From Tricholoma matsutake (lineage: Eukaryota > Basidiomycota > Agaricomycetes > Agaricales > Tricholomataceae), in the NCBI GenBank assembly GCA_026075535.2, contig AP026545.1:6820001-6884000 (forward strand): a stretch of DNA of 64,000 nucleotides, given 5' to 3'. Of the stretch, positions 13,911 through 19,465 are shown in pieces (positions within the stretch are counted from its first letter, which is position 1; each line of letters starts with the position of its first letter). A program made the translations under genes and the position numbers. The notes under the pieces are model-generated. The model saw nothing but the letters and a program-made list of their open reading frames with translations, was not told where the DNA came from and did not search any database.

Positions 13911-15491
13911 TTGGCCCCTCAACAGGTCGGCCGTCATATCCACCTTTCATTTGGTAACTCAACTATCATCTCTGTAGAGCTGCCTCGTTCAGTCTTTGAC
14001 GTCTTGAAACCCCATGTCGTATTGGATGCCCTCTACGGTTCCAGACAGAGAAGCGAAGAGCACGCTGTCACATGCTCACCCGAGACAGGAATCAAAATCT
14101 TAGAAGAGGTTCGATCTTGGGCTGATAGCATGACGACCCCAATTTGCTGGTTGAGTGGCCCTGCAGGTACTGGTAAAACCACCGTCGCGCATACCATCGC
14201 AAAGGAATACGACAAAGACGGAAAGCTTGCGGCTTCATTCTTTTTCTGGAGGAAGACGGGAGACCGCGATGACATCAACAAGCTTGTCCCTACCTTAGCA
14301 TGGCAAATAGCGAAGATCCCGTCAGCGAAGGAACGAATGGAGGAAGCTCTGGAGTTGAAGAATGAGGCTCGCATTCCACTCTCAAAACTCTCCCTCCAAG
14401 ATCAGCTCTCGAAACTTCTCGTCCACGCACCCGTCGCAGATACCAACCACGCTGGCCCCCATCTTATCGTTATCGACGGGCTCGACGAATGCGCTTCGCA
14501 AGAAAGGATTCGTCGGCTGATTGACTGGCTTCGCAAGAACACAACTCCCTTCCGATTCCTTCTTACGAGTCGTCCCGAGCTCTACATCAAAGATCGTTTT
14601 GTATCCGGCCTGGGTGACGGGCGCGTCGACGTTCAGGCGCTGTCTCTTACAGAATCGAAAGACGACATTCGAACATTCTTCATCGAAGAGCTTAAGAAGA
14701 TTAAACAAGAGCGCCTTGGGTCTCGTGGGCCGTCAGATTGGCCACCGAAATCATCCATTGACAACCTCGTGGAGAAATCGGAAGGCTTGTTCGTGTACGC
14801 AGCTACGGCTGTCCGATATATCGGCGGGAAAGGCTCTCCGCAGACACTGCTGACCAATGTCCTGAACTGCCACGTCGGTTTGGATGGCCTTTACTCTCAG
14901 GTCATTATGGAGGCCAAGGAGTGGAACTATTTTCACATAGTCATGGGAAATCTAATGCATGTTCGATATTCACCTGCTATTAGCGAGTTCTCCCGGCTTC
15001 TACTCGCCGTCAATAAGTCCCTCGAGGCTCATGACATTCGCTCGGCATTAGATGGGTGCCACTCTATCCTGGCCATCCCTCAGGATGATACGCATGCGAT
15101 CGAATCCTATCACGCCTCGCTACGAGATTTTCTGACTGACAAGTCCCGGTCACAGGACCTCTGTTATGCTCCTGCTACGTTTCATGCACAGCTTATGGTT
15201 GGATGTCTCAGAGTGATTACGAAGGCTTTCAGCGATGGCAGTCGTGCGCCAGAATATGCCCTTATATCATGGCTTTATCATGCTTGTTTGTTCTTGTCTG
15301 CACCCAGCGCGAGCGAAGGATTAGGGGGGCTGAAAGATGAGGCTGAGGGGTTGGTGAAGAAAATTGATGTGAAATGGATAAAGTTGTGGATGATAGAAGC
15401 ATTGGGTTGGGCAAGTGTACCATATTTGAGAGTACAGTTAACCCAAGAAAAGGTGAGAGAGTGGTATATGAATCCCAAGATTCATTATTGA
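13911..15491 (+). CDS. NACHT-type NTPase (NLR-like), no repeat sensor domain; 5' exon not resolved
   Basis: This is a long, GC-rich open frame. Residues about 83-91 are G-P-A-G-T-G-K-T-T (Walker A) and about 185-194 are L-I-V-I-D-G-L-D-E-C (Walker B). Between them lie F-F-F-W-R-K-T-G-D and T-L-A-W-Q-I-A; afterwards F-L-L-T-S-R-P-E and E-G-L-F-V-Y-A-A-T-A. A winged-helix-like part ends with Y-H-A-S-L-R-D-F-L. Such STAND NTPases act in fungal non-self recognition and cell death, usually with an N-terminal effector and C-terminal WD40, ankyrin or TPR repeats. Here the frame stops soon after the NACHT region, so no sensor is visible. Position 13911 is TTG and an in-frame TAA lies at 13896. The first in-frame ATG is inside the domain, so a 5' exon is likely, perhaps joined at the CAACAG before 13928. 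The effector is therefore unknown. It could be a truncated gene. Confidence 0.8.
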   Translation: MAPQQVGRHIHLSFGNSTIISVELPRSVFDVLKPHVVLDALYGSRQRSEEHAVTCSPETGIKILEEVRSWADSMTTPICWLSGPAGTGKTTVAHTIAKEYDKDGKLAASFFFWRKTGDRDDINKLVPTLAWQIAKIPSAKERMEEALELKNEARIPLSKLSLQDQLSKLLVHAPVADTNHAGPHLIVIDGLDECASQERIRRLIDWLRKNTTPFRFLLTSRPELYIKDRFVSGLGDGRVDVQALSLTESKDDIRTFFIEELKKIKQERLGSRGPSDWPPKSSIDNLVEKSEGLFVYAATAVRYIGGKGSPQTLLTNVLNCHVGLDGLYSQVIMEAKEWNYFHIVMGNLMHVRYSPAISEFSRLLLAVNKSLEAHDIRSALDGCHSILAIPQDDTHAIESYHASLRDFLTDKSRSQDLCYAPATFHAQLMVGCLRVITKAFSDGSRAPEYALISWLYHACLFLSAPSASEGLGGLKDEAEGLVKKIDVKWIKLWMIEALGWASVPYLRVQLTQEKVREWYMNPKIHY

Positions 15492-15547
15492 GGACACTAG
15501 CCTCGGGGTCTAGCCAGGGGAGATTGGATTCAACTCTTGCAGCGGAA

Positions 15548-18530
15548 ATTGAGAAGTATTTCTAGAATTCTGGAGGTAGGACTTTGCTGTTTCACAATTG
15601 AAGGTTACAGACTGAATTCTTTTCTATAGAAAGTAAGTCTGAGCTGTGATCTTTTTTTTAAACACAATTGTTAATGGCAAATTTGATCTATCTACACAAG
15701 TTTGTGAGTGTTCAAATGATATTTGTTTCAACTGTGAAATAGACTTGTGGACAGATGGTATGTATGTCTGCTGCTGGAGAAACCATGCTAACCAATGATT
15801 ATGACACTTGTTTGATAAATATGGAATCCAAAGGTGAGCTTGCATATTGTATCATGCTGACCTCTATTTCATTGACATATGCCACTGGTAGGAAGTGTGT
15901 GATCATTCTCAATGCTTGTGTGAAGTCACTCTGACCATTTTGTGATGTCTGTGCATCCTCAGTATGTGCGTGATCATTCTCAATGCTTGTGTGAAGTCAC
16001 TCTGACCATTTTGTGATGTCTGTGTCCTCAGCGAGTGTGTGATCATTCTCAATCCTTGTGTGAAGTCACTCTGACCATTTTGTGATGTCTGTGCATCCTC
16101 AGGGAGTGCGTGATCATTCTCAATGCTTGTGTGAAGTCACTCTGACCATTTTGTGATGTCTGTGCATCCTCAGGAAGTATGTGATCATTCTCAATGCTTG
16201 TGTGAAGTCACTCTGACCATTTTGTGATGTCTGTGCATCCTCAGGGAGTGTGTGATCATTCTCAATCCTTGTGTGAAGTCACTCTGACTATTTTGTGATG
16301 TCTGTGCATCCTCAGGAAGTGTGTGATCATTCTCAATGCTTGTGTGAATTCACTCTGACCATTTTGTGATGTCTGTGCATCCTCAGGGAGTGTGTGATCA
16401 TTCTCAATCCTTGTGTGAAGTCACTCTGACCATTGTGTGATGTCTGTGCATCCTCAGTATGTGCGTGATCCTTCTCAATGCTTGTGTGAAGTCACTCTGA
16501 CCATTTTGTGATGTCTGTGCATCCTCAGGGAGTGCGTGATCCTTCTCAATGCTTGTGTGAAGTCACTCTGATCATTTTGTGATGTCTGTGCATCCTTAGC
16601 GAGTGCGTGATCATTTTCAATCCTTGTGTGAAGTCACTCTGACCATTTTGTGATGTCTGTGCATCCTCAGGATGTGCGTGATCATTCTCAATGCTTGTGT
16701 GAAGTCACTCTGCCCATTTTGTGATGTCTGTGCATCCTCAGGGAGTGCGTGATCATTCTCAATGCTTGTGTGAAGTCACTCTGACCATTTTGTGATGTCT
16801 GTGCATCCTTAGCGAGTGTGTGATCATTCTCAATGCTTGTGTGAAGTCACTCTGACCATTTTGTGATGTCTGTGCATCCTCAGCGAGTGTGTGATCATTC
16901 TCAATCCTTGTGTGAAGTCACTCTGACCATTTTGTGATGTCTGTGCATCCTCAGATTGTGTGTGATCATTCTCAATCCTTGTGTGAAGTCACTCTGACCA
17001 TTTTGTGATGTCTGTGCATCCTCAGGGAGTGCGTGATCATTCTCAATGCTTGTGTGAAGTCACTCTGACCATTTTGTGATGTCTGTGCATCCTCAGGTTG
17101 TGCGTGATCCTTCTCAATGCTTGTGTGAAGTCACTCTGACCATTTTGTGATGTCTGTGCATCCTCAGCTTGTGTGTGATCATTCTCAATGCTTGTGTGAA
17201 GTCACTCTGACCATTTTGTGATGTCTGTGCATCCTCAGCGAGTGCGTGATCTTTCTCAATGCTTGTGTGAAGTCACTCTGACCATTTTGTGATGTCTGTG
17301 CATCCTCAGCAAGTGTGTGATCATTCTCAATGCTTGTGTGAAGTCACTCTGACCATTTTGTGATGTCTGTGCATCCTCAGTATGTGTGTGATCATTCTCA
17401 ATGCTTGTGTGAAGTCACTTGTGATGTCTGTGCATCCTCAGGTTGTGTGTGATCATTCTCAATGCTTGTGTGAAGTCACTCTGACCATTTTGTGATGTCT
17501 GTGCATCCTCAGGATGTGCGTGATCCTTCTCAATGCTTGTGTGAAGTCACTCTGACCATTTTGTGATGTCTGTGCATCCTCAGCGAGTGCGTGATCATTC
17601 TCAATCCTTGTGTGAAGTCACTCTGACCATTTTGTGATGTCTGTGCATCCTCAGGGAGTGCGTGATCATTCTCAATGCTTGTGTGAAGTCACTCTGACCA
17701 TTTTGTGATGTCTGTGCATGCTCAGCGAGTGCGTGATCATTCTCAATGCTTGTGTGAAGTCACTCTGACCATTTTGTGATGTCTGTGCATCCTCAGGTTG
17801 TGTGTGATCCTTCTCAATGCTTGTGTGAAGTCACTCTGACCATTTTGTGATGTCTGTGCATCCTCAGATTGTGTGTGATCATTCTCAATGCTTGTGTGAA
17901 GTCACTCTGACCATTTTGTGATGTCTGTGCATCCTCAGATTGTGTGTGATTTTTTTAATGCCTGTGTAGAGTCACCTTGCTCACTTTGCAATGCCTGTGC
18001 ACACTTAGCAAGTGTGTAATCTTTCTTCAGCTGCCCTGACTATCTGTTCATTTCTCTCCATTCTCAGAATGTCAGTGATGCTCTCAAAAACTCTTCTGGA
18101 ATTCACCTCTTTATCCTATAATTTTCCTTTCCAGGATGTGAGTATGGATTTAAAGTGCCGGTATACTATTCAACTGATATTTTATTTCATGTGCTCAGGT
18201 TGTATGCAATTCTTTTGTATTCTGGCATGCTAATGATTGTTGCTGGGTCTCAACAATTCTAGGATGTGTGTTACTATTTTGCATAAACCTTGATGGCTTG
18301 TACTCATGATTCATCATGTTCCTTCAGACTGTTTGTTCTGTCAATTTATTCATGTCATTTTTTAAAAATCACTATCTTTGCAGTTTGTATGTTGTCAATC
18401 TTAATTTTTGGAGTTAATGTCTGACATATTGCTTTGTCTTTAGTTTAAAAAGCAAAAGTTCAAACTCTTGCCTGATATGATATCCTTAGAAGGGTCAATA
18501 ATATTGGGATTTAAACACATTTGTTTGTGG
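15548..18530 (+). other. Candidate gene made of single-codon micro-exons between short introns
   Basis: A 33-nt exon candidate follows CTTGCAG (about 15548-15580: R-K-L-R-S-I-S-R-I-L-E) and ends at GTAGGA. After it, 3' and 5' splice-like signals repeatedly sit exactly 3 nt apart. TATAG-AAA-GTAAGT is at 15630, ACAAG-TTT-GTGAGT at 15701, ACAG-ATG-GTATGT at 15755, and TAG-GAA-GTGTGT at 15892. The 71-bp tandem array follows. After it come CAA (18009), AAT (18068), GAT (18135), GTT (18199), GAT (18263), ACT (18328) and TTT (18384). The last intron ends TTTAG at 18443, before an open stretch beginning F-K-K-Q-K-F-K-L-L-P-D-M-I. The seven downstream intron candidates are 53-64 nt and unlike each other; several have CTRAY branch sites. 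No triplet is a stop. No similarity is recognised. This is an inference that needs transcript data. Confidence 0.4.
15892..18011 (+). repeat. 71-bp tandem array, about 30 intron-like units with a variable triplet
   Basis: The period is 71 bp (for example GATCAT at 16254 and 16325). Each unit runs GTGTGT or GTGCGT, GATCATTCTCAATGC, then TCACTCTGACCATTTTGTG, then TGTGCATCCTCAG, and finally three variable bases. The 68-bp body differs at only a few positions between units. The triplet changes almost every unit: GGA 7, CGA 7, GAA 3, TAT 3, ATT 3, GTT 3, GAT 2, CAA 2, CTT 1 by my count of 31. One unit near 17420 lacks about 11 bp and one near 16020 lacks 4 bp. The last unit (from 17942) is diverged. 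Confidence 0.95.
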
Positions 18531-19465
18531 TGTTCACTGTGTTTTATCCTCAACAGTACTGATCATCCATTTTAGTCCAGTAATATGGTACTCCTATGAG
18601 AAATATTTCTTGAATGTCTCAAATATATGTACCAATGATATACAATCCCATGGCTGTAGGCACCAAACCAGTAAAGTTGTGATGATACCATGGATGACTT
18701 TTATGAGTGTAGACAGATGGGAATAGGGAAGGGGGGAGCAAGCGGCTGAAGGTTGCAAGCAGCATAAACAATGAAGAGCAGAGGACAAACCTGGCAACAG
18801 GCTTGATGGGGATCCAACAGCCAACCTGTTTCGCTTTAAAAGTTCTTCAGGCCAGATTCTGTGACTCAGAGTAGATCAGTACAAGTGAAATGATGTGCCA
18901 GGAGCTCAATGTGGATCACTTTTCAAGGAGGCATCCACCTGGAAGTATGCACCCTCCACAAGAGATGCTGTGACTCTGAGGGGTACTGTGTGAAATGCAA
19001 ATGCAGCAAACCTGCATGGTTCAACAACCAATGTCATAGTGCATCAGTTGGTAAAATGGCCAACATTGACCACCAAAATAAATTGCAAATAATTATTGGA
19101 ATAGATAGAAAATATGAATAGGACCCCATCCATCCCAAAATCATGAATTTTGGTGGACTACTTCCTGAGATATAGAGGAAATACTGAAAATACAGTCTTT
19201 GGGAGTTGTTGTAAAAGTGGGGTGTTAAAAAAATAGGTTTCTTGTCATGGCTCATCCCTAAATATGTCATAGTAAGTACTCTGACAGGTTTGGTGATTTT
19301 TAGTATCTTATGTAAGTTTGAAAGCAGGTGATTATAAAATTATGAGACTTGAATGTTATAACTTGATATGTATACATCTAAAATTCATGATTTCAACTGT
19401 TCCTGAGTCCTTCAGGCCCACAGACATTGGGAACATAATTATATCCCACCTTTCACTTGCCCCAG
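18531..19465. other. Stretch with no recognised gene
   Basis: No coherent coding frame or repeat was recognised here. Short ORFs are present but show no domain or splice pattern. Confidence 0.4.

Follow-up and report, generated by a model that had tools for sequence, protein, structure and literature searches.

A probable NLR gene of Tricholoma matsutake with a hypervariable array of predicted single-codon exons

Why should a fungal genome repeat an intron-like sequence of 68 nucleotides (nt) almost without change, yet place variable triplets between the copies? The question is raised by the window analyzed here, a 64,000-nt stretch of the Tricholoma matsutake genome (contig AP026545.1, positions 6,820,001 to 6,884,000 of the forward strand), for which an original prediction proposed either that each triplet is a one-codon exon or that an introner-like sequence had inserted between codons. 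We find that the array lies between two coding exons of a NACHT gene, which is most likely an NLR (NOD-like receptor) type consisting of a NACHT STAND domain, a hypervariable sensor segment assembled from ~40 one-codon exons, and a short conserved C-terminal exon.

The predicted array of near-identical 68-nt units is indeed present, with 29 units at positions 15892 to 17941 of the plus strand (exactly 68 nt in 27 of them, 66 and 58 nt in the other two) and diverged units beyond them. Each unit joins a single codon to an intron-like body with a GTGYGT donor, CTGAC ~30 nt before its end, and a terminal TCCTCAG; these limits come from the sequence, the splitting into units, and site diversity, and Tandem Repeats Finder places the array at 15890 to 17975 (period 71, 29.6 copies, 93% matches). 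The unbroken chain of 31 triplets (those of the 29 units, then ATT at 17939 and CAA) has the composition first described, with nine triplet types, no stop, and A or T at every third position. The whole run is longer than first reported, with about 40 predicted single-codon exons from 15630 to 18386: three lie 5′ of the array (at 15630, 15701, and 15755), and seven more lie 3′ of it between eight diverged introns (17942 to 18443, plus strand), namely CAA at 18009, AAT at 18068, GAT at 18135, GTT at 18199, GAT at 18263, ACT at 18328, and TTT at 18384. Twenty Markov shuffles of the other 60.7 kb of the window (one strand each) gave a single AG-NNN-GT chain of three and none longer, and the real remainder, on both strands, contains no chain of three or more.

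An open NACHT reading frame (ORF; 13911 to 15491) precedes the array, and within it the NACHT (STAND/NLR) exon of 514 open codons (13911 to 15452, plus strand) is delimited from the ORF, Pfam matches, homologues, and the ratio of nonsynonymous to synonymous substitution rates (dN/dS). Pfam matches to NPHP3_N (1e-28) and NACHT (1.1e-11) are both above cut-off, and the gene therefore has the NACHT/STAND nucleotide-binding domain by which fungal NLRs are recognized; the scan, which covered the NACHT exon only, gave no WD40, ANK, or TPR match. Homologues of this exon occur in Amanita, Pisolithus, Tephrocybe, and Tricholoma (among 120 listed of 338), and dN/dS is 0.31 to 0.36 among three intact-frame copies, a sign of purifying selection. 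The first intron (GTGAGA...CTAG, 48 nt; 15453 to 15500, plus strand) is predicted from the T. matsutake model P0057 (L208DRAFT_1406822), which skips 48 nt here in paralogous locus L009: over its residues 1 to 359, 359 of the 375 aligned positions match, and the other 16 are the intron that the model removes. Exon B follows (15501 to 15575, plus strand) and ends in ...ISRILE. Its phase, 0, is set by eight homologue models that carry ...I(S/N/C)xIL(E/Q) close to the C-terminus; the motif was matched in nine of the 120 listed homologues, the ninth (P0087) being a false match. We rejected a reading of exon B in frame +1 (EIEKYFWNS), as the IL(E/Q) of homologue models belongs to frame 0 and the +1 reading ends in TGA in several paralogues.

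The same models lead into the run of triplets. Four from T. matsutake (P0057, P0071, P0080, and P0082) and one from Amanita phalloides (P0049) splice from exon B to a lone AAA and continue into the next donor, giving ...IL(E/Q)-K-VSL (for example, ...ISGILE-K-VSLSCD... and ...ISMILE-K-VSLAAN), and this AAA (K) is the first predicted single-codon exon of the window gene (15630 to 15632, plus strand). Three others (P0003 and P0012 from Amanita brunnescens, and P0055) continue unspliced directly after ILE or ILQ. These homologue models thus end where the single-codon exons begin, in the genus Amanita too. We note that the four public T. matsutake models of this NLR family end in an intron after the first single-codon exon and lack the variable part; because such models stop just before it, fungal NLR surveys relying on them would miss it.

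On the 3′ side, the run is followed by a C-terminal coding exon of 43 codons in phase 0 (FKKQKFKLLPDMISLEGSIILGFKH...HPF stop; 18444 to 18575, plus strand), which is found in 14 copies (the window and L009 to L021) with the pattern FxxQKFxLxPxMIxLExSIIL in the same phase. Over the 28 codons that precede the earliest stop, dN/dS in six copy pairs is 0.14 to 0.61 in phase 0 versus 0.64 to 3.87 in the other frames, and phase 0 is lowest in all six pairs; over 33 codons, which overrun the earlier stop of L009, L018, and L016, the values are 0.11 to 0.38 and 0.44 to 2.13. Purifying selection is therefore indicated at this end as well. The NACHT and C-terminal exons flank the single-codon run in one common reading phase (phase 0), and the predicted spliced product has 622 residues with no internal stops.

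Coding ends in the same phase would be served equally by a single 2.9-kb jump, and the best-surviving alternative is that the whole array is spliced out as one long intron (from the first donor to the last acceptor) or is skipped long-range. The triplets would then be absent from mature RNA and the units would be a homogenized intronic tandem repeat, with which the differing unit copy numbers of the paralogues agree. However, neutral triplets should vary like the bodies around them, and per-site variation is ~19-fold greater in the triplets. The original prediction had proposed this very comparison, and its outcome is as expected for one-codon exons: the three triplet positions of the 27 exact units have site diversities of 0.60, 0.64, and 0.46, versus a mean of 0.030 in the body, and one of the 68 body sites reaches or exceeds the lowest triplet site. 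The corresponding entropies for the window units are 1.62, 1.50, and 0.96 bits at the triplet positions; body position 4 (T or C of GTGYGT) is on a par with the third triplet base at 1.0 bit, 0.91 and 0.83 bits are reached at positions 11 and 20, and the others have ≤0.38.

The triplets are also decoupled from the bodies that they adjoin. We asked whether units with identical bodies share triplets, obtaining the expectation by shuffling. In the window, the triplet before the body is shared in 2 of 24 identical-body pairs (3.4 expected, P = 0.88) and that after the body in 3 of 12 (1.8 expected, P = 0.22), so that sharing is no greater than chance. Preceding and following triplets are shared in 2 of 22 and 4 of 16 pairs in paralogue L009 (3.2 and 2.1 expected) and in 1 of 5 and 0 of 3 pairs in a further array, L026 (0.4 and 0.2 expected); another, L025, has no identical-body pair. 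Diversifying selection and change directed at the triplets would each yield such decoupling, and the data fit both alike.

Furthermore, the triplets follow rules that depend on the donor. If the triplet between AG and GT is written xyz, then yz = CA or TA makes a new YAG acceptor with the next G, and yz = GT before a GTGYGT donor creates an additional donor, GTGTGY. A strict pattern detected 134 array junctions in the first family (the window gene and its paralogues, 15 loci), and 132 of them lie outside NGT, NTA, NCA, NNC, and NNG; L013 (CAG) and L016 (CCA) account for the other two, and both of these copies have broken NACHT frames. Of the 20 permitted triplet types with A or T in third position, 16 are used, compared with 1 of the 12 conflicting types (Fisher P = 1.3e-4). 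Thirteen of 15 amino acids are encoded by one codon each (GGA never GGT, CGA never CGT, ATT never ATA), glutamine and proline having two; amino-acid choice alone is an insufficient explanation for this pattern. NGT is found at none of 134 junctions with the GTGYGT donor versus 7 of 36 in L026 (P = 1.2e-5), whose GTAYGT donor would yield GTGTAY, a poor donor. Donor-specific rules of this kind, together with gene models that reach AAA through a short splice, argue against one long intron, which we regard as unlikely.

A noncoding satellite in which the triplet is a mutational hot spot, unrelated to splicing, would account for homogenization, which is usual in tandem arrays, and for the decoupling of triplets from bodies in L009 and the window. 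It seems less probable still, since the diverged downstream units retain GT...AG and, in nearly all copies, the exact 3-nt spacing (L011 has lost one triplet by deletion), triplet usage differs by donor type, and both ends are coding exons.

If the triplets are single-codon exons, then how do they differ among copies of the gene? A genome search with the array listed 19 matches, a lower bound, at 16 places, of which 15 are copies of the window gene (the window and L009 to L022) and one is a related array (L023). The longest triplet chains are those of L009 (36), the window (31), L010 (28), L012 (15), L011 (14), L016 (11), and L015 (10); L017 and L018 have nine each, L014 and L019 seven each, and L013, L020, L021, and L022 four to six. 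Unbroken chains have similar ends (AAA TAT or GAA first; ATT and then GAA, CAA, AAA, or GAG last), and their interiors differ. L017 and L018 are 99.8% identical over 2,393 bp upstream and have nine triplets each, yet three of the four interior triplets differ and L018 has a rearranged unit; L015, 99% identical to L017 upstream, has ten triplets, differing in both unit number and triplets. Such differences despite near-identical upstream sequence indicate that change happens inside the array. The NACHT frame is open throughout in the window, L009, and L018, and is frameshifted, split, or absent in L010, L012, L015, L016, and L020. On contig C12, a pre-array part without an array (L027, C12:3310052) lies ~7 kb from the L012 array (C12:3302740), and because of this spacing the L012 gene copy looks split.

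Arrays of similar construction are also present outside this gene. A second family comprises L023 (contig C1), L024 (C5), and L025 (C4), in which 67-nt units with a GTATGT or GTAAGT donor are followed by an exon with a HET-domain match; the arrays (L023:3830-5375, L024:5042-5850, and L025:5187-7120) lie upstream of the HET-domain exons (PF06985), apparently in frame. A 10-nt exon (CACCGCTTGT in L023 and L024, GCACACTTGT in L025, with GTGAGT after each) would link array and HET exon in frame. Between L024 and L025, dN/dS of the HET exon is 0.47 in frame versus 0.65 and 1.2 out of frame, a modest difference, and the HET exons of L023 and L024 are broken by stops. Of 45 listed homologues, seven start with VDN, VDG, or VDD at the array-side exon edge, and the majority of the rest start at a methionine that is close by or farther on, which lends the edge weak backing. 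Three of 14 HET matches adjoin arrays, and none of eight others has a chain of at least three within the 4 kb examined for each. The triplets of L025:5187-7120 are mostly YNR (CAA, TGG, CTG, TCA, TTG, and CGG), unlike the set used by the other arrays, and four of them conflict with the splice rules.

The third array, L026 (contig C9; L026:2918-5905), has 43 triplets, bodies mostly of 69 nt (a 72-nt period), the GTAYGT donor, and NGT codons. It begins near an ATG, with ATG CCA as a possible reading of its first exon. Since the 72-nt period is divisible by 3, unspliced ORFs of up to 330 amino acids stay open across its units. Upstream (L026:1-1450) are ORFs that, by eye, resemble the tyrosine recombinase and RNase H of a DIRS-like element. 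A search with L026 listed itself and three short second-family matches.

Are these arrays related? We compared single unit consensus sequences, trimmed of six bases at each end, against 500 dinucleotide shuffles. The window and L023 consensuses are similar (z = 3.95, 0 of 500 shuffles), as are those of L023 and L026 (z = 3.26, 1 of 500), and those of the window and L026 are not (z = 0.74); with the first ten bases removed, z falls to 3.16, 2.16, and 0.17, respectively, and comparison of L023 and L026 with 12 other introns of the window gene gives z ≤1.92. We had considered the array families as unrelated inventions, and dropped this because of the likeness of two of the three pairs beyond splice signals, seen against mononucleotide as well as dinucleotide shuffles. 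From that likeness, the NACHT- and HET-linked arrays may share an ancestral unit.

The same similarity, with near-identical bodies around unrelated codons, lends some weight to the other proposal of the original prediction, introner-like insertion between codons, by which a once continuous long exon would have been interrupted after each codon, and to spread of the unit between genes as an array. In its usual form introner insertion finds no support here: all 19 listed genome matches fall in arrays or the remnants of arrays, with no dispersed single copy among them, the 3-nt spacing is kept throughout, and the triplet differences between L015 and L017 and between L017 and L018 point to change inside the array. 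We consider it as improbable as the satellite, although the distant similarity of NACHT- and HET-linked units may leave room for slow spread of units between genes. An array of structured RNAs or small-RNA precursors, which the regular ~70-nt repeat might suggest, is the least probable of all, since a three-unit stretch folds no better than its shuffles (199 of 200 were at least as good, z = +2.1).

The reading of the triplets as one-codon exons is thus well supported by sequence. The proposal has gained the same-phase coding ends, the splice rules, the decoupling, and the similarly built paralogues, and it stays a sequence-based reading, short of proof. Several observations weigh against it. 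First, L023 behaves differently, with the preceding triplet shared in 7 of 11 identical-body pairs (2.3 expected, P = 0.01) and the following triplet in 11 of 11 (2.5 expected); duplication therefore copies triplets there, whereas in the first family triplets changed and bodies did not. Second, the splice rules are imperfectly kept. When diverged units are included, in a looser count in which L011 is undercounted, 253 of 274 junctions are free of conflict, the others being 16 NNG, 3 NCA, 1 NTA, and 1 NNC, with no NGT; one of the NCA triplets (ACA) is in L018, an intact copy, L025 violates the rules at 4 of 29 junctions (3 NCA and 1 NTA), and the near-absence of NNC and NNG from first-family arrays is not explained by them. 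Third, five TGA triplets occur in paralogues, one each in L010, L012, L015, L016, and L020. All five copies are NACHT-broken and the 61 counted triplets of the three intact copies include no stop, but the contrast (0 of 61 versus 5 of 73) gives only P = 0.06, and confinement of stops to broken copies is suggestive only. Fourth, dN/dS of the C-terminal exon is drawn from 28 to 33 codons with few differences, in six nonindependent pairs that include L013 and L016 with their broken NACHT frames, and for L009 and L013 phase 0 is barely the lowest (0.61 versus 0.82 and 0.67). Finally, a search with the C-terminal 108 residues gave 49 candidates, none at an E value of 10 or better, and no homologous protein.

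Between AAA and the array, two further single-codon exons are predicted. TTT (F) at 15701 to 15703 (plus strand) is preceded by AAG and followed by GTGAGT in most of eight aligned copies. ATG (M) at 15755 to 15757 (plus strand) corresponds to ATG, GTG, GCA, AGG, or GTA between CAG and GT in paralogues, of which GCA and GTA are splice-conflicting types; here a frame-keeping 15-nt alternative is possible, using an acceptor that ends at 15742. A 94-nt exon from 15743, open in the window, was rejected in view of stops and indels at that place in paralogues. The sequence then predicts a 134-nt intron (15758 to 15891, plus strand), within which AG abuts GTGAGC (15833/15834) in most of the eight aligned copies, possibly as a zero-length exon, that is, a recursive splice site.

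How might such a gene be expressed and diversified? We infer that each 68-nt unit would be a spliceosomal intron with a GTGYGT donor, CTGAC branch site, and YAG acceptor. The introns would be removed singly, probably in order during transcription, because two splice sites 3 nt apart could hardly be bound simultaneously, leaving the codons joined in frame. Unequal exchange would make the array grow, shrink, and homogenize, with selection diversifying each codon at the same time, and the single-codon stretch would serve as the sensor region, in place of the WD40, ANK, or TPR repeats of other fungal NLRs. Because all of these exons are 3 nt and their splice sites are interchangeable, skipping any of the codons would keep the frame; any donor could be joined to any later acceptor, so codon skipping is expected, and one gene could yield many isoforms, as cited for the truffle nank genes described below. 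A bolder and rather doubtful extension is that matsutake NLR and HET-linked genes hold a codon-by-codon repertoire, in which triplet-directed change spares the bodies, combinatorial splicing gives many receptor variants per gene, the code is limited to splice-neutral codons, and one ancestral unit has moved between recognition genes; if true, combinatorial receptor diversity would have a fungal analogue here. The splice rules provide a concrete sequence grammar that is testable by RNA sequencing.

Several known systems resemble parts of this arrangement. Schistosome micro-exon genes have many tiny symmetric exons that permit combinatorial splicing, as the matsutake array would; unlike those predicted here, their exons are longer than one codon each and are not known to lie in a homogenized tandem array. 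Introners are recognized by dispersed near-identical copies that serve as introns of unrelated genes; the 19 matches listed here all lie in arrays or their remnants, and to HET-linked units the similarity is only distant. Another parallel is offered by the NWD genes of Podospora anserina (het-d, het-e, and het-r), in which hypervariable WD40 repeats undergo concerted evolution and diversifying selection acts on four amino-acid positions in each repeat (PMC4986451). These too are NACHT STAND genes with internal repeats evolving in concert, but there the repeat is wholly protein-coding, whereas in matsutake the conserved part of the repeat is the predicted intron and one codon per repeat would be coding. 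A literature search of titles and abstract beginnings, with most subscription journals outside its coverage, returned no such exons in Tricholoma or another basidiomycete, and the main text of the matsutake genome paper (PMC10211490) gave no match to the words exon, NACHT, or NLR.

The closest counterparts are the NACHT-ANK (nank) genes of the truffle Tuber melanosporum, for which codon-sized, alternatively spliced microexons are described (Iotti et al. 2012, as cited in passages of PMC4986451, PMC10197012, and PMC3689799). According to those citing passages, this kind of gene is already known, and the original prediction's statement that nothing like it was known does not stand. Both systems are fungal NACHT NLR families with tens of 3-nt exons, about 40 being predicted from splice signals and phase in the window gene, and the truffle genes reportedly diversify their sensor part through alternative splicing. 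Truffle is an ascomycete whose genes have ankyrin repeats, whereas matsutake is a basidiomycete, and because the scanned NACHT exon has no ANK match we do not file the window gene as a nank gene. Set against the truffle genes as the citing passages describe them, the matsutake arrays stand out through homogenized intron bodies, hypervariable codons, and a second family that precedes HET domains, and this basidiomycete, HET-linked, hypervariable form seems to be new. A single-codon-exon design cited so far from truffle, in the literature searched, is thus predicted in a basidiomycete as well, where a single genome would hold it in three gene families, with NACHT and HET recognition domains next to two of these.

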